Source: Myxococcota bacterium | Lineage (GTDB): Bacteria > Myxococcota > JAJVIH01 | NCBI GenBank assembly: GCA_022072125.1 | Contig: JAJVIH010000050.1 | Span: forward strand, 41,464-105,463 | Reading direction: 5' to 3' | Length of the DNA: 64,000 nucleotides | Part shown: piece by piece, positions 35,748 through 46,569 of the stretch | Position numbering within the stretch: the stretch's first letter is position 1 | Layout of the letters: each line of letters starts with the position of its first letter | Made by a program: the position numbers and the translations under genes | The notes under the pieces: model-generated | Database searches by the model: none | What the model was told of the DNA's origin: nothing | What the model saw: only the letters and a program-made list of their open reading frames with translations

Positions 35748-36320
35748 TTATTGGCCTGCGTTTTCTGGCGTGCAATTGCCGGGCCAGCGGTTTGGACCGG
35801 TGGCTTTCAGCAGGCCGACACAGGATTCGTTCATGCGCCCCACCATGAAAGATTCCCGTTTGCCGCCGGGGCACATGACAGCCAACGAATAGTGTTGTTG
35901 ATCACCTTTGGTTTCATAATGAATGGGAGAATATTTAATGCCAGTGAAAAAATAATCGTCTTGTGGGTTTTTAATTGATTCGCCGTGCCATGGCATGGAA
36001 AAACAAAACGAACCGGCTTTTTCCATGGTCCATATCTCTCGGTTCATCTTGAGCACGTGACCACTCGACCAGCGGATAACGGTTTCATCTCGAGTGGTGG
36101 ATGCCGTGCAGGCTCCCGTCACCACGCCACAGGGCTCGTTCAGCTTGGTCAGGCAGGACTGGTTGGCTTCCAGCACCTGCTGGCATTCCGGCCTGAAAAA
36201 CAGCACATGCGATGCTTGTTCTGGCATGAGAGGGTCAGGATCAATGATGAGTTCATCCTCGCATGACACCAAGCCCATCCCCATCATCAGCAGGACCGCA
36301 GCCGTCCACAATGAGTTCAT
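35748..36320 (-). CDS. Small Cys-rich lipoprotein, unknown function
   Basis: 190 residues from ATG at 36320, behind GGAG at 6 bases. Lipoprotein signal ends in GMGLVSC (Cys 20). The mature part has about nine Cys in blocks: RPECQQVLEANQSC, EPCGVVTGAC, FCFSMPWHG, AVMCPGGKRES and a final NESC. These suggest a small disulfide-bonded domain facing the periplasm or surface. The ATG overlaps the TGA of the subtilase-like gene (ATGA), so its amount is tied to that protein. By position it could be an inhibitor, chaperone or co-surface partner of the protease-like protein; this is inference. Paralogue of the frameshifted gene downstream. Base composition is AT-richer than in surrounding genes. Confidence 0.78.
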   Translation of the reverse strand: MNSLWTAAVLLMMGMGLVSCEDELIIDPDPLMPEQASHVLFFRPECQQVLEANQSCLTKLNEPCGVVTGACTASTTRDETVIRWSSGHVLKMNREIWTMEKAGSFCFSMPWHGESIKNPQDDYFFTGIKYSPIHYETKGDQQHYSLAVMCPGGKRESFMVGRMNESCVGLLKATGPNRWPGNCTPENAGQ

Positions 36321-38674
36321 TTTGTGCTCCATGCGATGGCGACACGAATATCCCTGGACGTCAGGCCGTATTGGGTCACCACTGCCTGACAAGTATAATT
36401 GCCGAGCAGATTGCTTTTTGAATCAATATATATTCCCTCGGAGTTGCCGGTAAAGTTGCGTGATCCGAATATTATAAAGCTCTTATGTGCATGTTTTGTC
36501 TCGCAAAGAAAAAATAAATCCAGATCAGCGTGATTTTCCTTTTCACACCCTGTGACATCTCCGGGAGTGCAAATGGGAGTGATTTCCCATGCCATGACCA
36601 CCCTGATTTGACCGGTGGGGGCGGGTTGAATGGGGATGTTCAGATTCATGGCCCGCAGACCCAACTCATTCGTTGTGTCCCAAAACTTGTCCCGGCGGAA
36701 ATCCGAGGGCCTGATGATGCTTTCTTCCCAACCATTTTCGCGGGGTTGTTGAGGGTTCAATCTTCCCCCACGTGGTCCCCGGATCAAATCCAGGGCACTC
36801 CGTACATTTAAAAAGCCGTAACCAGCATGATGATCCAGATTTTGCAATTTGACATCATCAAGGTTAATTCCCATCCATGGTGGAGGACTGTTTATGATTT
36901 TACCCACCTCGGGCAAAATCGGACCGTCCCATGGCAATGGAAAGGCAAACACCCGATCCATGAAAATATCACCGTTACCTCCTAAACTCATCCAGTATGT
37001 GCCCATGTGGTCAGCGGACGCGAAGAGGATTGCCTGGGCCAAATGAGGTCGTTGGATGATGTGTGGTTCAATGGCCATTATTCTTGCCACCGCGCTGGTT
37101 ACAAAAGGTGCCGAGAGACTTGTACCACTCTCTAATACACGTTCCAGCGGCTCATTATCCCCCGGAACTTCCACGTCTTGTCCACGCGCCATGAGATGGG
37201 GCATTTCCATGAGTCTGCCGAATGATCGTTGGTTGCTGATCGAGGAAAAATCGGCCCGCCCAGCTTGTTTGTAGCTAAATTCACGTATGTGGAGTGGTTT
37301 TGGTGTGGCGCCGACAACGAAACCATTGTACAGGCTATGGCTGACAAACGCCTCATGGTCCCGAAAACATTTCAGATGCCCTTCTTGGCCATCATCGGGG
37401 TTGATGACATCCGCAAAAGTATCGATCCGCGAGCATCTGCCCTGGTTTCCGGCGGAGGCGACCCAGACATGTCCGCTTATTGTAGCGAGATAGTCGGCAT
37501 ACCGGTCTATCACGCTGCGCGTGAAACGCTCATCCACGTATTCCTCGTAACGATCCTGGCCGTCGTCATCGCGGTCCCATTCAAACGCGAGTCCAAAAGA
37601 CATATTGCTTACCTGATATCTGGCCAGCGGCATTAAATAGGTCAAGCCCTGGTCGCCAAAACCACCATCTTTTAATTTAAACCATCCCAGCTTGGCGCCG
37701 GGAGCTCCACCACGGGCGCTCATACCACTTGCGGGGCCGTTCCGGATAATTGAACTGACTTTGACAACATGGGCTGCTTCACATGGATCATCGAGTGAAA
37801 CATATTCATCGGGACCCAACCCGTAGTTCCCGATCCATGCGGGACCACGCCCACATGGTTCCACTACGGCAATATTGATGCCTTGCCCCCCCACGCTACT
37901 TGAAGGAAATTTATGATGAATAAACAAATCAGAAGAAAGCAAAGAGGGCTTGTCATCATCATGGTTGTGAGTTTCAACCCCTCCACTTTCTCCATCATAT
38001 ATCACCTCTATTTTACCGAGAGCCTTGTTCCGCAGGGCGACAAAATCATTGGCCGGCAGAGTCACTTCAATCATCGGGCCAAATATCTTTTTCACTTGGG
38101 CATAGGAATCCTCATTGATATCGAGTCGGTCAAGCACCACGCTCTGCTCGGCAAGCCATGCGGAGGCCAATTGCTCGATGGTGGCGCCCGCCGCCTTCAT
38201 CGCGAAATAGTTCTCGGGGGCGTACAGCCACAGGATCATCCTCACCGGGTCGGCGCCCTTGCCCTCGGCGATCATCCGCGCCACCCGCGACTCCAGCGAG
38301 GGCTGGACAAACCACGGCGCCTCGCTGTCGGCGCGCACGGGCGCCGGGGCCTGGAATTTTTTCGGCACCACCGACCCCTCCGGAAATCCCTCTTCCAGCG
38401 GAATCAGCAACCGCACGCCCTCGTTCTCGGCGTACAGGGCGTATCCCCTGGGGACGCCCCCGCCGGAAACGCCGCCATCGCGGCCGCCCGCCACGCCGCC
38501 CTGGCCCTGGCGGACATCGTTGTTCGTGGTGGAATTGTTCGTGGAGGTACAGTTGCCGCCCGAACACGAGGTGCTGGTGTTCGTGATCGTGATCGGCGGC
38601 ATGGAGGTCTGACATCCCGCCAGCATGTGGCTTGCCAGCGCCATGACCGTGATGGTGAGGGATTTCGCGTTCAT
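36317..38674 (-). CDS. Subtilase (S8)-like lipoprotein with Glu at the catalytic Asp position
   Basis: 785 residues from ATG at 38674 behind GGAG. Lipoprotein signal ends in HMLAGC (Cys 21). Residues 22-55 are a Ser/Thr/Asn-rich leader (PPITITNTSTSCSGGNC) shared with the gene at 38710. A Gly-rich stretch and a prodomain-like region follow to about residue 240. The S8 core runs about 260-640: INIAVVEPCG (Glu where D-T/S-G is expected), CEAAHVVKVSSII (His), VSNMSFGLAF, WVASAGNQG (oxyanion Asn), ESGTSLSAPFVTSAVA (Ser). The C-terminal domain is a PPC/P-like beta-sandwich (RVVMAWEITP, ADLDLFFLCE). Cys-rich. Coupled by ATGA to the small lipoprotein. GC-rich 5' quarter, AT-richer remainder. Activity uncertain because of the Glu substitution. 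Confidence 0.85.
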   Translation of the reverse strand: MNAKSLTITVMALASHMLAGCQTSMPPITITNTSTSCSGGNCTSTNNSTTNNDVRQGQGGVAGGRDGGVSGGGVPRGYALYAENEGVRLLIPLEEGFPEGSVVPKKFQAPAPVRADSEAPWFVQPSLESRVARMIAEGKGADPVRMILWLYAPENYFAMKAAGATIEQLASAWLAEQSVVLDRLDINEDSYAQVKKIFGPMIEVTLPANDFVALRNKALGKIEVIYDGESGGVETHNHDDDKPSLLSSDLFIHHKFPSSSVGGQGINIAVVEPCGRGPAWIGNYGLGPDEYVSLDDPCEAAHVVKVSSIIRNGPASGMSARGGAPGAKLGWFKLKDGGFGDQGLTYLMPLARYQVSNMSFGLAFEWDRDDDGQDRYEEYVDERFTRSVIDRYADYLATISGHVWVASAGNQGRCSRIDTFADVINPDDGQEGHLKCFRDHEAFVSHSLYNGFVVGATPKPLHIREFSYKQAGRADFSSISNQRSFGRLMEMPHLMARGQDVEVPGDNEPLERVLESGTSLSAPFVTSAVARIMAIEPHIIQRPHLAQAILFASADHMGTYWMSLGGNGDIFMDRVFAFPLPWDGPILPEVGKIINSPPPWMGINLDDVKLQNLDHHAGYGFLNVRSALDLIRGPRGGRLNPQQPRENGWEESIIRPSDFRRDKFWDTTNELGLRAMNLNIPIQPAPTGQIRVVMAWEITPICTPGDVTGCEKENHADLDLFFLCETKHAHKSFIIFGSRNFTGNSEGIYIDSKSNLLGNYTCQAVVTQYGLTSRDIRVAIAWSTK

Positions 38675-38709: not shown

Positions 38710-40312
38710 TCAGGGGGTGAACTCCAGTTTCCACGCCGTGCCGAAGGCTTCCGGCGCGCCGATGGGCAGGGTCGAGCCCACCATCCAGAAGGCGGCGGAG
38801 CTGGTTGTCGTGGGGGGCGGGGGAGCGAGCATGGTTCCCCACACGCCGCGCACCGAGGTCTTGCTCAGCAGGTATTTGTTGTCGGTGGTGTCGGCGTCCA
38901 GCTTTTGAAACACCGGGGCGGCGGCGGCGAAATCCGCCCAGGCCACCATGCCGTTGTCGCCCGCCACCAGGACCGGACGCTTGTTTCCGGCCACCGCGCC
39001 AAACACGCCGCGCAGATGCCCCGCCCCCGTGACGGGGCCGCTCAGGTTCGCCCATGAGGAGGTGTTCTTGCGCGCCAGGGTTCCGCTTTCGCCCACCACG
39101 ACGATATCGGCCGATGGGTTGGGCGCCGCGAACCAGACCCCATGCAGGTGGGGCGAGGCGGAGTTGGTTCCGCGTTGCACCACGAAGGCTGGAGCGCCCA
39201 GGCCGGAATCGCGGGTGAAGGTGGTTCCGGCTCCGTCGGTGGAGATCAGCACCTCCCCGGATTCGCCCACCGCCACCACGGTGATGGGGGAAGCGGTGGC
39301 GGAGTTGTCCTTCACCATGGCGTGAATGGCGTAAATCTCGCGCGCATCCGCCGGAAGGGTGGCGGAGGTGATCGTGCCGCCGCCGCCGGCCACCTCGTGG
39401 TAGCGGGTGATTTTCACGCCGTTGACGGCGGATTTGACGGCCCACCACACAAAGCGCTCGTCCAGTCCGGTGGCGTTTTTGCGGACCACCGCGGTGACAT
39501 CGTACGCGCGGGAGTTGGCGTCCGCGCCGTCACCCAGACCGGAGAGGACCCAGGGGCTGGCCAGCGGAGCGGTTTTGGGCAGGTGATATTTGCGTTTGTA
39601 GGTGGGGGTGGAGGCCGGAATGGCGTCGTGGCCGGTGGAGCGGGCGGTGATGCCAGTGCCCAGGCCATCCAGCCCCACGGCGGCGAAGACCGATTCATCG
39701 TTCAGGTGGAAGCCGTGGATATCGGGATCGGTGAGAGAGGGAATGGGGTTGTCCATGTTCCCCAGGTGACCCGTGCGCAGGCTGATGATGCGGTGGGCGT
39801 TGCCAGCGGTGGCGACCATGGGGGCTTCCCCGCCGATGTTCACGCCGTACACGGCGTTGAGCGGCGTGATATCGGCCACTCCGGCGGTTTCCAGATCGCC
39901 GTTCATCAGCATGAGGGGACCCACGCCGGGGCCGCTTCCGGCATCGGCGCCGGTGTCCGGCGTGACGTCTCCGAAGCCGCCGTCCGCGGGGCTGGTGTCG
40001 CCCGAACCGTTGTCGCCGGGAAAAACATCGGAGGCGCCGGCGTCGCGCGGGGGCCGGGGCTCGAAGGGGTCGGGCAGTTCGGGAAACTCGACGCCTTCCC
40101 CAGCGGCGGCGGCCTGGGTTTGTCCGGTGGTATTGCTGGTGGTGGTGGAGTTGCTCGCCGTGCAGTCGCCATCGGAGCACGAGGTGCTCATGTTGGTGAT
40201 GGTGATGGGCGGCAGGGAAGCCTGACATCCGGCGAGCAGAAACAGGCCGGTCAGCGCGGCGGTCAGTCTACGGTTGGCATGGCCTTTGCTGGGGGGGGGG
40301 TAGGTGGCGCAT
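38710..40312 (-). CDS. BNR/Ycf48-like beta-propeller lipoprotein with start out of frame across a G10 tract
   Basis: The track ORF starts at 40191 (MSTSCSDGDC), but the same frame extends upstream through an unmistakable lipoprotein signal (RRLTAALTGLFLLAGCQ) and PPITITN, matching the leader of the gene at 36317. That extension has no ATG, GTG or TTG. The only good start is ATG at 40312 behind AAAAAGG, seven bases away, and it is one base out of frame because of ten C (coding strand). Nine C would give MRHLPPPSKGHANRRLTAAL and a 534-residue lipoprotein. As written, translation stops after 14 codons. The mature protein has Asp/Gly-rich linkers, then BNR-like blades (DESVFAAVGLDGLGTG, EVLISTDGAGTTFTRDSG, NKRPVLVAGDNGMVAW). 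Likely surface-exposed binding protein. 35 bases before the subtilase gene, same operon. Confidence 0.72.
40291..40300. repeat. Homopolymeric G10 tract inside the 5' coding region
   Basis: Ten consecutive G on the + strand, ten C on the coding strand, located 9 to 19 bases inside the ATG at 40312. Its length decides whether the start is in frame with the signal peptide and the mature protein (nine or twelve: in frame; ten or eleven: early stop). Confidence 0.9.
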
Positions 40313-40613: not shown

Positions 40614-41303
40614 TCACCAGGGTTCGACGGGCGCGGGTCCGCCGAAGAAAAAGATCACGCCGAGATTGATGCTGTTGCCAGACAGGGGGACGCGGACGCC
40701 ATCCAGTTTGGGAATCGCCGTCCAGTAGAAGGTGTCGTCGAGGAACAGACCCACGTGGCGGCTCAGATCAAAGCGTACGCCTGCTCGCAGCATCAGATAC
40801 TGGTTCTGGCCTCCGCCCTCCAGTTCAGAGCCTGTTGTATCGGTGGCGTAGGCGATGGTGAACCAGTTACCCAGGCCCAGCGCCAGAAACGGCACGACCA
40901 CCTCATCCACGTCGAGAAAGAAGGTTCCCGTCAGCCCCAGCAGGATATGATGGCTGTCCATCTTCCTGCCCTTCACGCTCTCCAGCGAGTCGTGGGCGTA
41001 GCCGGTTTCAATGCCCAAATCCACGAAATGCAGCGGCTGCCAGGAGAAGCGGGCGGTCGCCAGCGGGGGGACGAGCAGGTAGCTCTTCAGTTGATCGCCC
41101 TTGAGTTGCAGGGAGTCGCGGACGGGGCCGCGGGGGATCATATGGTAGCCGCCGGTGATGGCGATGGCGCCGCGTCCCGAGCGGGGCCGTGCTTCTGCGG
41201 CGCAAGGAAGAGCAAACGCGGCGGTCAAAAATGTAATATATATTGCTACATCAATGTATCGTAACAGCATCAATCTAAAATTATTTTTGTATTTCAAATA
41301 CAT
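40614..41303 (-). CDS. Outer-membrane beta-barrel protein
   Basis: 229 residues. A signal peptide ends near ALPCAAEA. The mature part alternates polar and hydrophobic residues as in 8-strand barrels: GAIAITGGYHMIPRG, FVDLGIETGYAHDS, HHILLGLTGTFFLDVD, YLMLRAGVRFDLSRHVGLFL, and a C-terminal strand with aromatic end (INLGVIFFFGG). This fits an OmpA/OmpW-like or 'outer membrane beta-barrel' protein without a periplasmic domain. Start: ATG at 41303 or 41270 (MLLRYIDVAIYI); neither has a Shine-Dalgarno. The 5' end lies in an AT-rich stretch. Stand-alone gene, 301 bases downstream of nothing it obviously pairs with. Confidence 0.75.
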   Translation of the reverse strand: MYLKYKNNFRLMLLRYIDVAIYITFLTAAFALPCAAEARPRSGRGAIAITGGYHMIPRGPVRDSLQLKGDQLKSYLLVPPLATARFSWQPLHFVDLGIETGYAHDSLESVKGRKMDSHHILLGLTGTFFLDVDEVVVPFLALGLGNWFTIAYATDTTGSELEGGGQNQYLMLRAGVRFDLSRHVGLFLDDTFYWTAIPKLDGVRVPLSGNSINLGVIFFFGGPAPVEPW

Positions 41304-41482
41304 GATTGTCTGATGCGATGCGTCATGAAAGCGCCGATTTATTTTTATGTAGTTGTTCTGCTAATTCGCCGGAGGATGGGCGCTCCGCTCCAACCTGGGC
41401 GGACAGGCAAGAATCCATCGTAAGATATTGAATAAAAATGATAATTTTTGTTTCCTCCAAAAAAGTTTTTCCTGAATCAAAA

Positions 41483-41499
41483 TTGGCACGCGGATTGCT
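41483..41499 (+). promoter_or_regulatory. Consensus sigma-54 (RpoN) promoter
   Basis: TTGGCACG-CGGA-TTGCT: exact match to the -24 (TTGGCACG) and -12 (TTGCW) elements with the required 4-base spacing. It lies 76 bases upstream of the ATG of the small membrane protein at 41576, on the same strand, inside an AT-rich stretch where an enhancer-binding protein could dock. Confidence 0.85.
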
Positions 41500-41575
41500 A
41501 ATACGTTGCCCGACGAAATGGCCCGGCGGAACGCCGCAAGCCCAACCCAGAATCCTTCAGACCGGAGCAAAAGTC

Positions 41576-41878
41576 ATGAAAACCTTCTCGAACACCCAGG
41601 AATTTCCCCGCTTCGCCTCCTCCCGCAAGGCTTCCTCGCGGCGCTTTTCCTTCGACGGGAATTTCGCCCGCGCCCTGGCGGTGATTGGTCTGTGGCTGGC
41701 CGCCTTCGTGGGGTATTCGATGAATGATTCCGTTGAGCAGCGCGCGCTGGGCGTGGCCCGCTTCGCCAGCCCCGGCTGCAAGGAATTCCGCGTGACCGGC
41801 GTGGAAGTCGAAGGCAAGTACTCCTACGTCTCCGTGGACGCCTGCGGTGAGTACGAAGTCTACGGCGTGATGAACTGA
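41576..41878 (+). CDS. 100-residue single-pass membrane protein under sigma-54 control
   Basis: 100 residues from ATG at 41576 behind GGAG at 8 bases; the longer ORF runs upstream through the promoter. The first 40 residues are soluble and basic (FPRFASSRKASSRRFSF), then a transmembrane helix (ALAVIGLWLAAFVGYSM), then a C-terminal domain of about 45 residues with a Cys pair (PGCKEFRVTGVEVEGKY and SVDACGEYEVYG). Basic N-terminus inside and Cys pair outside suggest an inner-membrane protein with a disulfide-bonded periplasmic mini-domain. I know no family. Monocistronic: its own sigma-54 promoter upstream and a strong terminator 51 bases downstream. Confidence 0.82.
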   Translation: MKTFSNTQEFPRFASSRKASSRRFSFDGNFARALAVIGLWLAAFVGYSMNDSVEQRALGVARFASPGCKEFRVTGVEVEGKYSYVSVDACGEYEVYGVMN

Positions 41879-41929
41879 TTTCCGCGGCGCGATTCCGCCG
41901 CGAACCGTTGGGCTGCCGGAAGAGCCTGG

Positions 41930-41964
41930 ACGCTGGGATTGTGGGGGATCCCAGCGTTCTTTTT
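41930..41964 (+). terminator. Rho-independent terminator after the sigma-54-controlled gene
   Basis: Perfect 10-bp stem ACGCTGGGAT / ATCCCAGCGT (41930-41939 and 41948-41957), 8-base loop, then TCTTTTTG. Confidence 0.9.
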
Positions 41965-41987
41965 GTTTCCCGTCCTGTTGTTGTTCC

Positions 41988-42221
41988 TCACTTCCCGCCC
42001 TTGCGCTTGCTGTTCCACACCCGCGCGAGGCCGGTTGTCAGCGCGATCACCCCGGGCCAGAAGGTCACCATCGCCAGCAGGCCCAGGCCAATGGGATTGG
42101 GGTTGGGGTCGGAGGTAAGTCCCAGTTCAGCGGCGATGATCACCGCTATCAAGGGACCCGCTCCGCCGATCAGCAACAGCAGGCCCAGCCACACCAGTTT
42201 GGATTTCAGGTAGTCTTTCAT
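41988..42221 (-). CDS. Small two-helix membrane protein
   Basis: 77 residues from ATG at 42221 (MKDYLKSKLVWLG). Two hydrophobic helices (VWLGLLLLIGGAGPLIAVII and LLAMVTFWPGVIALTTGL) joined by a short Asn/Pro-rich loop, with a basic C-terminus. The 298-residue ORF of the track adds Arg-rich shadow sequence. No family recognised. It lies 77 bases downstream of the MmcQ/YjbR-like gene and may be co-transcribed. Confidence 0.65.
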   Translation of the reverse strand: MKDYLKSKLVWLGLLLLIGGAGPLIAVIIAAELGLTSDPNPNPIGLGLLAMVTFWPGVIALTTGLARVWNSKRKGGK

Positions 42222-42298
42222 CGGGTCATCCGGTGGTTTCCCGGCGGCCTGCGCCCAAGCCTTTCCGGGAGAAGGTGGCTGTTTTCCGCCCGCGGCGA

Positions 42299-42664
42299 TT
42301 ACCGGGGCGGATTTTTCCTCCGGGCTGTTTTGCGGGCGCCCCCGGGGGAATCCCATATCAGGCCATGGCTTTCCGCGATCCAGAGGATCAGCGTATCTGG
42401 CGGAATATCCGCGCCGGCCTTGACCGTCATCCAGCCGTTGGCGCCCACCTTGCAAAACCGGGGCTGCCGTTGGGCCCATTCCCGCGCCGCGGGCGCCGAG
42501 GGGCCAGGTTTCATCATGACATCGGCGGCGCCCAGGAAAACAAAGGCCTTGCGATGAACCTTGAAGGTCCTTTTCTCCAGCGCCGTTCCCTCGCAGGCGA
42601 CGCCTTCTTCGGCCATTGGCAGCGTCATGGCGGCTTGTCTCAGGGGATGAATGAATGGATGCAT
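42299..42664 (-). CDS. MmcQ/YjbR-like protein
   Basis: 121 residues from ATG at 42664 behind AGGAG at 6 bases. The order of elements matches the MmcQ/YjbR fold: EKRTFKVHRKAFVFLGAADV (conserved K-V-x-x-K-A-F-x-F-L), MMKPGPSAPAAREWA, KVGANGWMTVKAG and LILWIAESHGLI. The fold resembles a double winged DNA-binding domain but function is unproven in the family. The C-terminus is basic (GGARKTARRKNPPR). Confidence 0.75.
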   Translation of the reverse strand: MHPFIHPLRQAAMTLPMAEEGVACEGTALEKRTFKVHRKAFVFLGAADVMMKPGPSAPAAREWAQRQPRFCKVGANGWMTVKAGADIPPDTLILWIAESHGLIWDSPGGARKTARRKNPPR

Positions 42665-43384: not shown

Positions 43385-44506
43385 TTATGGGAGAAACTGC
43401 CCGGGGTTGGCGATTTTGGCGGGCAGGTACTCGTCAATCACGAAATTCAGGCCCCATTTGGCCAGCGCCTGCTGCTCCGCGCGGACGCCCATGTTGATCA
43501 GGTCCTCCATGGCGTCAGCCCATTTTTTGTGGACATGGAAAAAGGGGTCGTTCTTGAGGGCGTCGCGGGCGCGCTTGATATCCACGTCCTTGAGCGGATG
43601 GGTGGGCAGTTTGTAACGCCTGATGTCCTCCGGGGTCACGCCCAGGTAGCGGGCCTGGGGCACGCAGAAAAACTGGTTGATATGCGCGGCGTTTCCGGAG
43701 CCCACCTTGAGGGTGCGGTAGATATTGGAGATTCCGTAGGGATCGCAGTCCACGAAGGCGTAGACGGGGATTTTCATTTCATCGCTGAGGCGGCGGACGA
43801 ACCGGCGGCATGCGCGGGAAGGCACGCCGCCCATGCCGATGATGATGCAGTTCATCTTCTTCCAGAACTTGTGATACTGGAGACGGTCGAATACGCCGCC
43901 GGTTTCAATCGCCAGAATGAATTTCGCGCTGGTTTTGAACCCCAGGTGGTCCACCCGCTTGGGAATGGAATAGGCGCCGGAGCCGAAGCGCGTGCAGTCA
44001 ATCTCGATGGTTTCTCCGGTTTCGCGGTCGCGATCATACACGATCAGTTCGCCGCCGACGGCGCCGCCGTGCTCCTCGGGCAGAAAACGCAGTTCCTCGC
44101 GCGAGACGCCATGCAGGGAGAACATCGCCTCGATGTCGTCCATCACGGTGTCGGATTCGTCCTGCTCGTGAAACATCGCCTCGCCCCAGTTCTTGGACTG
44201 GTAATAGGCGTCCCGCTTGGTGGCGAAGTCGTTGGTGACCACCAGTTCCTTCGACAGCGCCATCATGCGCAGGGTCTGGGCGAAGGTCTTGACGGTGTTG
44301 ACGGTGAGCGTGCGCTGTTTCTTGTGGCGGCCCATTTCAAAGTAGCCGCGCCTGGTGTCGTATTTGACGTTCTGCAGGCTGCGCACCGGAAAATCCATGA
44401 CCGGCTTCGAGAGCCTGTTGATCTTGTCATAGACCTGCCGCGCCACCTTCTCGATGCTCTCGATGGTGATCTGATCCAGCTTGCTGTTGATGGTGACTTC
44501 CGACAT
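43385..44506 (-). CDS. top6A: DNA topoisomerase VI subunit A (Top6A/Spo11 family)
   Basis: 373 residues from ATG at 44506; the longer ORF extends into top6B. This subunit makes the double-strand break. The winged-helix CAP domain has the catalytic Tyr in ATKRDAYYQSKNWGEAMF. The Toprim domain has the Mg-binding acidic residues: ILAIETGGVFDRLQ (Glu) and VYAFVDCDPYGISNIYRTL (DxD). DIRRYKLPTHPLKDVDIKRA near the C-terminus is also typical. Length matches archaeal Top6A. The gene follows top6B by 17 bases on the same strand. Topoisomerase VI relaxes and decatenates DNA in archaea and plants and is found in only scattered bacteria. Confidence 0.95.
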   Translation of the reverse strand: MSEVTINSKLDQITIESIEKVARQVYDKINRLSKPVMDFPVRSLQNVKYDTRRGYFEMGRHKKQRTLTVNTVKTFAQTLRMMALSKELVVTNDFATKRDAYYQSKNWGEAMFHEQDESDTVMDDIEAMFSLHGVSREELRFLPEEHGGAVGGELIVYDRDRETGETIEIDCTRFGSGAYSIPKRVDHLGFKTSAKFILAIETGGVFDRLQYHKFWKKMNCIIIGMGGVPSRACRRFVRRLSDEMKIPVYAFVDCDPYGISNIYRTLKVGSGNAAHINQFFCVPQARYLGVTPEDIRRYKLPTHPLKDVDIKRARDALKNDPFFHVHKKWADAMEDLINMGVRAEQQALAKWGLNFVIDEYLPAKIANPGQFLP

Positions 44507-44523
44507 GGCGTCTGACCCCGGGG

Positions 44524-46569
44524 CTACATTTTGCGGGAGCGCGACAACACCTCGTGCAGGTTTTCCTCGGTGCGTTCGCGTTCCGGTTTGCCCAGCTTGA
44601 GGATTTGCTCCAGCGACTCGCCGATATGCGGGATGTACTTCTCGATGTACCCGCGCTTTTTCATTTCGTCGGCCATGCGCCGCTGCTTGCGCAGGTAGAT
44701 GCCCAACTCCCGCCCGCATTCCTGCATGGCGAGCTTCATTTCCTTGATGATTTCCGGATAGTGCGCGATCGCCTCTTTCGATTCGCTGGTGAAAGGCACC
44801 CACACGCTGGCGATATGCACCGCCAGGGTTAGCGGCCCGGATGGCAAGGCGCCCTTGCTCTGCTGCAACTGGTAGTTCTTCCACGCCACCTGAACGGCGC
44901 TTTTGTACACGGCGCAGGCGCTCTGCTGATAGAGCAGGGGGACCCGGTTCGCGAACCGCACAAGCTGGATCAGTTCATCGGCCGGCTGTTCGCCGCCGTA
45001 AGCCAACGCCACCTCCACCAGGAACGGATTGCCCCGGTACACCGAGGGCGGGCGCGTGCGCGCGGTGTAAAAATCCGCCTTGACCTGCTGCCTCAGTCCC
45101 GCCATCAACTGCTCCTCGCCGATGGGCGAGAGGCAGTTGGTGGGCGGCGCCATCAATTTGGTTTTGTTGATGGCCTGGTAGAGCGCCTCGGCGCCCTCCC
45201 GCCGCACCTTCTTCGGTTGCGAATCGGGGGAGACGCCGGCGGCCTTGCAGATCTCCTCCGCCGCCCGCGGGCTGACGCGCGAGAAATCATTGGACAGGAA
45301 GCCCCGCATGTTGCGGGCGTCGGTGCTCTCCAGCTTTTTGATCAGGATGCCGAGTTCGACGCCGTGCGGATGGGGTTTGATCTCCCGGGCTTCCGGCGGA
45401 AGCTCATTCGCCGCGCGTTCATACTCAAAGGTCTCGCCGCGCGGATTCCGGTAGCTGAAGCGGGCGTGGGGATTGGCGATGGCCGTCTGCTCCACATAAC
45501 CTTCGACCGATTGCCTGCCGCCGCGATAGAGCCCCTGCAATTCGATGGACACCCGGGTGCCGTGGGGAATGGGTTTGGCGAGCAGGTCCTCGCCGTCCTT
45601 CCACTCGATGGTCTCGTCCTTGAGGATGACCGGGTTGTTTTTCACCATGTCCATCTGGACCACGAAATGGTGCGCGGGCTGTTTGTCGCCGGTGCGGCTG
45701 ACGACATCCACCGGCTGGCCGGTGGTGAGCTGGCCGTACATGCCGGCCGCGGAAATGCCGATGCCCTGTTGCCCACGCGACTGCTTGAGGCGGTGAAATT
45801 TCGACCCATACAGCAGCTTGCCGAAAATCTTGGGGATCTGCTGCCGCACGATGCCCGGGCCATTGTCGGTGACGGTGATGCGGAAGCGATCCTCCGCCGC
45901 CCCGGGATCAATTTCGATTTTGATGCTGGGCAGGATGCCCGCTTCCTCGCAGGCGTCCAACGAGTTGTCCACCGCTTCCTTGACGGTGGTGAGCAGCGAT
46001 TTGATGGGGTTGTCGAAGCCCAGCAAATGCCGGTTCTTGGTGAAAAATTCGGAGATGGAAATCTCGCGCTGGTTGGCCGCCATCTCGTGGGCGGTCACGC
46101 GCTTGCGGGCGCCTTTCACCGGTTTGGGCGGAGCGGCCTGCTCCAACTCCTCTTGGGCGGGGGGAGCGGTCCGGGTCCGCTTGGGGGCGTCCGCGGGTTT
46201 TGATCCCGGTGCGGCGTCCGCGGGGGAGGGCGGTTTGCCTTTCCCGCGCGCGGTTTTGGCGGGAGCCTCCGCGGCTTTTTCCCGGGCTGGTGGTTTGGAA
46301 ATGGATTTTCCGGGCTTGCCGGCTCCCTTGCTTTCCGCTTTCCCAGGCCGGTCAGGCGCGGCGGCCTTGCCGTTTTTCGCCGGCGCCTTGCCGCTGGCGG
46401 GCTTGGCCGGCGGGGCTTTGGCGCTCGCGGGGGCGCTTTTGCCGCGCGCGGCGGCGCGGGAGGTCTCGCCCGCCGGTTCGCCAAACAGCGAAAGGGTCGC
46501 GGCGTCCGCGGGGTTGCGCCCGCGGGCTTCCGCCGCGGGGCCGGAATCTTGCTGCTCCACCGGATTCAT
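44524..46569 (-). CDS. top6B: DNA topoisomerase VI subunit B with Lys/Ala/Pro-rich N-terminal extension
   Basis: 681 residues. Core from about 158: EFFTKNRHLLGFDNPIKSLL, GHKL ATPase motifs KEAVDNSLDACEEAGILP, VTDNGPGI and SRGQQGIGISAAGMYGQ, then H2TH and transducer domains (RMADEMKKRGYIEKYIPHIG near the C-terminus). ATP binding dimerises B and drives strand passage through the break made by A. Residues 1-155 are unlike archaeal Top6B: low-complexity Lys/Ala/Pro/Gly/Ser (APPAKPASGKAPAKNGKAAA), like histone H1 tails, probably disordered and DNA-binding. No Shine-Dalgarno is seen at the ATG (46569), so the start could differ, but the extension is open and Lys-rich in one frame only. Confidence 0.93.
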   Translation of the reverse strand: MNPVEQQDSGPAAEARGRNPADAATLSLFGEPAGETSRAAARGKSAPASAKAPPAKPASGKAPAKNGKAAAPDRPGKAESKGAGKPGKSISKPPAREKAAEAPAKTARGKGKPPSPADAAPGSKPADAPKRTRTAPPAQEELEQAAPPKPVKGARKRVTAHEMAANQREISISEFFTKNRHLLGFDNPIKSLLTTVKEAVDNSLDACEEAGILPSIKIEIDPGAAEDRFRITVTDNGPGIVRQQIPKIFGKLLYGSKFHRLKQSRGQQGIGISAAGMYGQLTTGQPVDVVSRTGDKQPAHHFVVQMDMVKNNPVILKDETIEWKDGEDLLAKPIPHGTRVSIELQGLYRGGRQSVEGYVEQTAIANPHARFSYRNPRGETFEYERAANELPPEAREIKPHPHGVELGILIKKLESTDARNMRGFLSNDFSRVSPRAAEEICKAAGVSPDSQPKKVRREGAEALYQAINKTKLMAPPTNCLSPIGEEQLMAGLRQQVKADFYTARTRPPSVYRGNPFLVEVALAYGGEQPADELIQLVRFANRVPLLYQQSACAVYKSAVQVAWKNYQLQQSKGALPSGPLTLAVHIASVWVPFTSESKEAIAHYPEIIKEMKLAMQECGRELGIYLRKQRRMADEMKKRGYIEKYIPHIGESLEQILKLGKPERERTEENLHEVLSRSRKM

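Follow-up and report, generated by a model that had tools for sequence, protein, structure and literature searches.

The window, by which we mean the whole stretch of DNA analysed (64,000 nucleotides of a Myxococcota genome), carries on its forward strand a short gene that is preceded by a sigma-54-type promoter element and followed by an intrinsic terminator. In window coordinates the features of the locus are the following:

41288–41302, no strand assigned: palindrome TGTATTTCAAATACA, no more than a candidate binding site for an activator, some 180 bp 5' of the -24 box
41483–41499, forward strand: sigma-54 -24/-12 element TTGGCACG-N4-TTGCT, an exact match to YTGGCACGNNNNTTGCW
about 41510, forward strand: predicted transcription start, from the usual spacing with -12 taken as the C of TTGC
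41510–41575, forward strand: predicted 5' untranslated leader of 66 nt, from the promoter position
41564–41567, forward strand: Shine-Dalgarno sequence GGAG, 8 nt 5' of the ATG at 41576, from the sequence
41576–41878, forward strand: coding sequence of a 100-aa membrane protein, from translation, third-position G+C and coding score
41663–41719, forward strand: single membrane helix (codons 30–48), hydropathy peak 1.61
41771–41875, forward strand: C-terminal mini-domain (codons 66–100), predicted to be periplasmic, from an AlphaFold2 model
41928–41967, forward strand: intrinsic terminator, a 13-bp stem (41928–41959) followed by the T-rich tail TTTTTGTTT

Genes on the minus strand lie to either side. 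At 43385–46569 two adjoining genes resemble topoisomerase VI subunits B and A, as judged from their translations read by eye, and at 36317–38674 a lipoprotein with a subtilase domain is encoded, whose N-terminal S/T/N-rich stretch is like that of the adjoining poly-C lipoprotein described below.

The promoter element reads TTGGCACGCGGATTGCT, that is TTGGCACG-CGGA-TTGCT with CGGA as the N4 spacer, and presents the -24 GG and the -12 GC at canonical spacing. An earlier sequence-only reading of this DNA had called it an exact -24/-12 element, and rightly so; no other exact match to the extended consensus exists in the 64 kb of the window, and 100 dinucleotide shuffles yield 0.01 on average. An order-2 Markov model with the window as training sequence expects 0.35 exact matches on both strands of the 3.97-Mb genome. 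The sequence-only reading had tied its case to the presence of rpoN, and here absence is excluded: the genome has one copy (PF04552, E 5.3e-68, in an open frame of 496 aa). It also encodes enhancer-binding (AAA+) proteins in number, with 15 matches to PF00158 above 190 bits, and Pfam scans of ten of these activators show input domains of the receiver, FHA or GAF kind before the AAA+ and HTH domains.

A match to the consensus is nevertheless not proof of use, because the majority of mapped sigma-54 sites in E. coli, which are mostly intragenic, seem to be transcriptionally inactive (PMC4591121). The same observation lends some credit to an alternative in which the -24/-12 match is inactive or arose by chance, and a housekeeping or ECF-type promoter that went unrecognised in the A+T-rich sequence upstream (41304–41482 is 59% A+T) drives the gene. 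Coincidental matches do occur in this genome: two exact ones, in the loci L013 and L014, and a one-mismatch site at 40274 were rejected as promoters, since each lies antisense to a lipoprotein gene. The site at 41483–41499 differs from these and from the largely intragenic inactive sites of E. coli in being intergenic; it is correctly oriented and lies at a normal distance from its gene, the ATG at 41576 being 76 nt downstream, and the same Markov model expects 1.3e-5 exact matches within 300 bp upstream of any given gene. A search of 41200–42300 for a sigma-70-type promoter gave no match. Taken together, these points make transcription from another promoter rather improbable, and 41483–41499 is very probably a real sigma-54 promoter.

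Sigma-54-type matches are in excess in the wider genome as well, though not all of them are promoters. The pattern TGGCAC-N5-TTGC occurs 14 times, compared with 4 times for its reversed control, and the extended pattern with one mismatch allowed occurs 38 times, compared with 14. There are ten exact extended matches, of which four belong to one repeated contig-end element and two are those in L013 and L014; this leaves about five independent plausible exact sites, the one studied here included, where 0.35 would be expected. Immediately behind the plausible sites, counting exact ones and those one mismatch away, lie genes for lipoproteins (L009, L012 and L015), a single receiver domain (L003), an RpoH-like sigma factor (L005), a type IV pilin (L132), an FHA-type activator (L140) and a Fis-like HTH protein (L131). 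The near-consensus site of the RpoH-like sigma gene lies 72 nt 5' of it (L005/L137, G000:C6:52886-52902). Sigma-54 has been described as governing the exterior of the bacterial cell (PMC3162934), and judging by the genes behind the other good -24/-12 sites the gene at 41576–41878 would fit a surface- or envelope-directed sigma-54 regulon.

The activator that would serve this promoter is harder to place. A search for an enhancer-binding site at 41350–41480 had been proposed; nothing found upstream of 41483 rises above chance, and the best palindrome, at 41288–41302, is equalled in about 15% of shuffles and overlaps the possible start of a divergent gene. No activator gene was recognised adjoining the gene. 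The locus thus resembles known sigma-54 (RpoN) promoters in its exact extended consensus, its intergenic position, orientation and distance, and in the presence of rpoN and of activators in the genome, and it differs from them in having neither a recognised enhancer site nor a recognised activator of its own and in a transcription start that is predicted.

The remainder of the unit is conventional. The predicted leader has no significant fold (fold z-score 0.14), and the Shine-Dalgarno sequence and the terminator are as normal and as strong, respectively, as the sequence-only reading had described them. Third-position G+C in the coding sequence is 82% and the coding score 22.5; the score falls to 12.6 when the frame is extended back to 41438, which supports the ATG at 41576 as the start. 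A lone gene behind a sigma-54 promoter is an ordinary arrangement for such promoters, and these sequence features give good support to a sigma-54-dependent transcription unit of one gene, whose product is a small membrane protein with one helix. This much of the earlier interpretation stands, but the signals it had proposed (stress, nitrogen, motility or development) are indistinguishable from one another here, and the 'tight control' it had invoked would follow from the general working of sigma-54.

The protein has the one membrane helix and the pair of cysteines that had been ascribed to it: residues 30–48 are the sole hydrophobic stretch, and the sequence contains just two cysteines, Cys68 and Cys90. 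Residues 1–29 are basic, with a net charge of +4 over residues 1–30, and by the positive-inside rule the N-terminal tail is predicted to be cytoplasmic and the C-terminus to lie outside (N-in/C-out). An AlphaFold2 model, computed from a three-sequence alignment, shows a helix at 28–64 and strands at 71–79, 82–89 and 92–99 that would form a three-strand beta-meander. Confidence in the model is moderate (mean pLDDT 65.6, pTM 0.42, with block pLDDT values of 73–81 over residues 51–100). We infer a disulfide between Cys68 and Cys90.

The protein has no match in Pfam, NCBIfam, PHROGs or the sequences of the PDB. Phages and plasmids searched by tblastn, 57 further genomes of the phylum at E 0.001, and genome contigs queried with the 100-aa protein alone gave none either. 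By these searches it is almost without known relatives, a near-orphan. A Foldseek comparison of its model with the PDB returned nothing at E 0.001 or better; the best match is to an archaeal type IV pilus subunit and falls short of significance (E 0.23, rmsd 19). That match, together with the near-consensus sigma-54 site in front of a type IV pilin gene (L132) in the same genome, is what could be said for a minor pilin or pseudopilin, a sigma-54-controlled protein likewise composed of a helix, a beta-sheet and a C-terminal disulfide loop. There is no Pfam pilin match, and when the sequence before the helix was inspected by eye the prepilin motif G|F-T-L-x-E, with Glu at +5, was absent, on which ground a pilin identity was rejected; such a role is scarcely credible.

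The gene layout, in which an activator-dependent sigma-54 promoter drives the gene of a small membrane protein, is also reminiscent of pspG. In E. coli this gene belongs to the PspF regulon and its product is a Psp effector (PMC2763126). A membrane-stress effector working like PspG is very unlikely here, however, as PspA/IM30 is absent from the genome (95.8% complete; 9 of 14 control genomes were positive) and NCBIfam scans of ten activators gave no score at or above the PspF cut-off. No sequence likeness to PspG was found, and the protein differs in its Cys-paired, predicted periplasmic mini-domain. A Cys-paired outer domain is not known as a feature of PspG.

Some distant kinship may nonetheless be discernible. 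An orthologue search with the C-terminal domain had been proposed; performed loosely with the C-terminal 47 residues it gave weak matches, among which inspection by eye singled out a 120-aa protein of like layout (L021), the others being set aside as they do not share it. A profile of the 100-aa protein and L021 retrieved L044. These two proteins of 120–121 aa, encoded at L053/L044 in JACRCP010000298.1 and at L054/L021 in JAOAFA010000037.1 (both 'Deltaproteobacteria' MAGs), share 64% identity with each other and about 25% with the 100-aa protein, with which they have in common a short N-terminal tail, one helix and then a P-x-C-[RK] ... CG-x4-Y mini-domain. Layout and the order of cysteines and strands agree: a single-sequence fold of L053, of modest confidence, has strands at 67–73, 79–85 and 88–94, and its cysteines are placed relative to them as in the 100-aa protein. 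Pairwise hhalign of the 100-aa protein with the two gives P 1.7e-4. On the other side of the ledger, a profile of the two relatives from which the 100-aa protein was excluded reaches only E 0.056 in the latter's own genome, a value that unrelated matches equal elsewhere, and across 195 genomes this profile does not single out the 100-aa protein. The two proteins have a C-terminal extension that the 100-aa protein does not have. Their genes lie directly 3' of genes for a thiolase and an adenosine-specific-kinase-like protein (translations read by eye), whereas the neighbours of 41576–41878 differ and include neither, and the flanking stretches available for the two show no sigma-54-like site. 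We regard them as candidate relatives, not proven ones. The statement that the protein has no known family stands as far as Pfam, NCBIfam, PHROGs and the PDB are concerned and is qualified by this distant pair of candidates.

The mini-domain brings to mind a second set of proteins. A short C-P-x(n)-GCG-x4-Y domain, sought with real sequences only, occurs in 73 of the 195 genomes of the phylum (e.g. L089-L118), often in tandem copies and often borne by lipoproteins. Its features follow the same order as in the 100-aa protein (Cys, strand, strand, CG-x4-Y, strand), and hhalign brings the cysteines, the CG and the tyrosine into register with P 0.02 for the 100-aa protein by itself and P 0.0067 when the two candidate relatives are included. 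One might see in the 100-aa protein a diverged, membrane-anchored member of this lipoprotein family with the same surface role. The profile of the mini-domain, however, scores it at 1.3 bits, below many of its shuffled versions (best 13.0), and in this genome the family profile has no match at E 0.05. The C-P...GCG-x4-Y proteins are lipid-anchored or soluble and often tandem, whereas the 100-aa protein would be held by a membrane helix and is not recognised by their profile. Membership in the family is on balance unlikely; the likeness is a lead, not proof of homology or of membership. Tentatively, the 100-aa protein and its two candidate relatives might constitute an undescribed single-helix envelope family in which a disulfide staples the beta-meander. 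The family would be a remote relation of the C-P...GCG-x4-Y lipoprotein domain, and in this lineage its gene would have been placed under sigma-54 as a separate unit; we hold this to be possible, though we would not expect it.

As a whole the locus is probably best explained as a sigma-54-controlled one-gene unit for an inner-membrane protein whose periplasmic, disulfide-stapled mini-domain has an accessory role in the envelope. In this scheme the sigma-54 RNA polymerase would wait at 41483–41499 in a closed complex, to be opened with ATP by one of the cell's approximately 15 enhancer-binding proteins loaded somewhere upstream. The mRNA would run from about 41510 to the terminator at 41928–41967 and cover the one gene. 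Its 100-residue product would be inserted into the inner membrane, the basic tail remaining inside and the 35-residue, three-strand mini-domain stapled by Cys68–Cys90 facing the periplasm, where it might bind or steady another envelope component whenever the signal is on, as part of the surface-directed sigma-54 regulon. The sequence itself shows the promoter match, the gene, its terminator, rpoN, the activators, one hydrophobic helix and the two cysteines, from which the use of the promoter, the topology, the disulfide, the fold and the role in the envelope are deduced. The envelope role itself is drawn from just two things, the predicted location of the protein and the company that its gene keeps in the regulon.

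The locus supplies a credible sigma-54 target in a bacterium that is otherwise uncharacterised, and it directs attention to a Cys-paired membrane mini-protein not described before. The matches on the reverse strand of the repeated lipoprotein genes show that even a flawless fit to the -24/-12 consensus may be spurious, which calls for care in promoter calling. The C-P...GCG-x4-Y mini-domain is common in the phylum, appears to be unnamed in Pfam and NCBIfam judging by the searches with the 100-aa protein, and merits a family model.

Two further observations are more surprising than the main gene. The first concerns the repeated contig-end element with an exact sigma-54 site, whose four copies are located at G000:C9:105-121, C20:69915-69931, C25:105-121 and C77:9772-9788 (L006, L008, L010 and L016). 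Three of them share a strong palindrome, GATGCAAC-ACCCT-GTTGCATC, about 100 bp upstream of the sigma-54 site, and the fourth has a different palindrome and is divergent to the gene of an FHA-type activator. The transcribed part of the element runs off the contigs.

The second concerns the poly-C lipoprotein family. In the minus-strand lipoprotein gene that extends from 38710 to about 40314, a tract of ten C residues (40291–40300) just 3' of the ATG leaves the frame out of register as assembled; a tract of 9 or 12 C would give an open frame that runs through a good lipoprotein signal peptide (MRHLPPPSKGHANRRLTAALTGLFLLAGC). From its sequence the gene looks phase-variable, and an assembly error is possible. 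L013 and L014 (G000:C44, reverse strand, about 1491-1500 of each locus) are paralogues with C8 tracts near the start, and each is out of frame by a single base, one longer and one shorter, the pattern that a phase-variable surface family would be expected to show.
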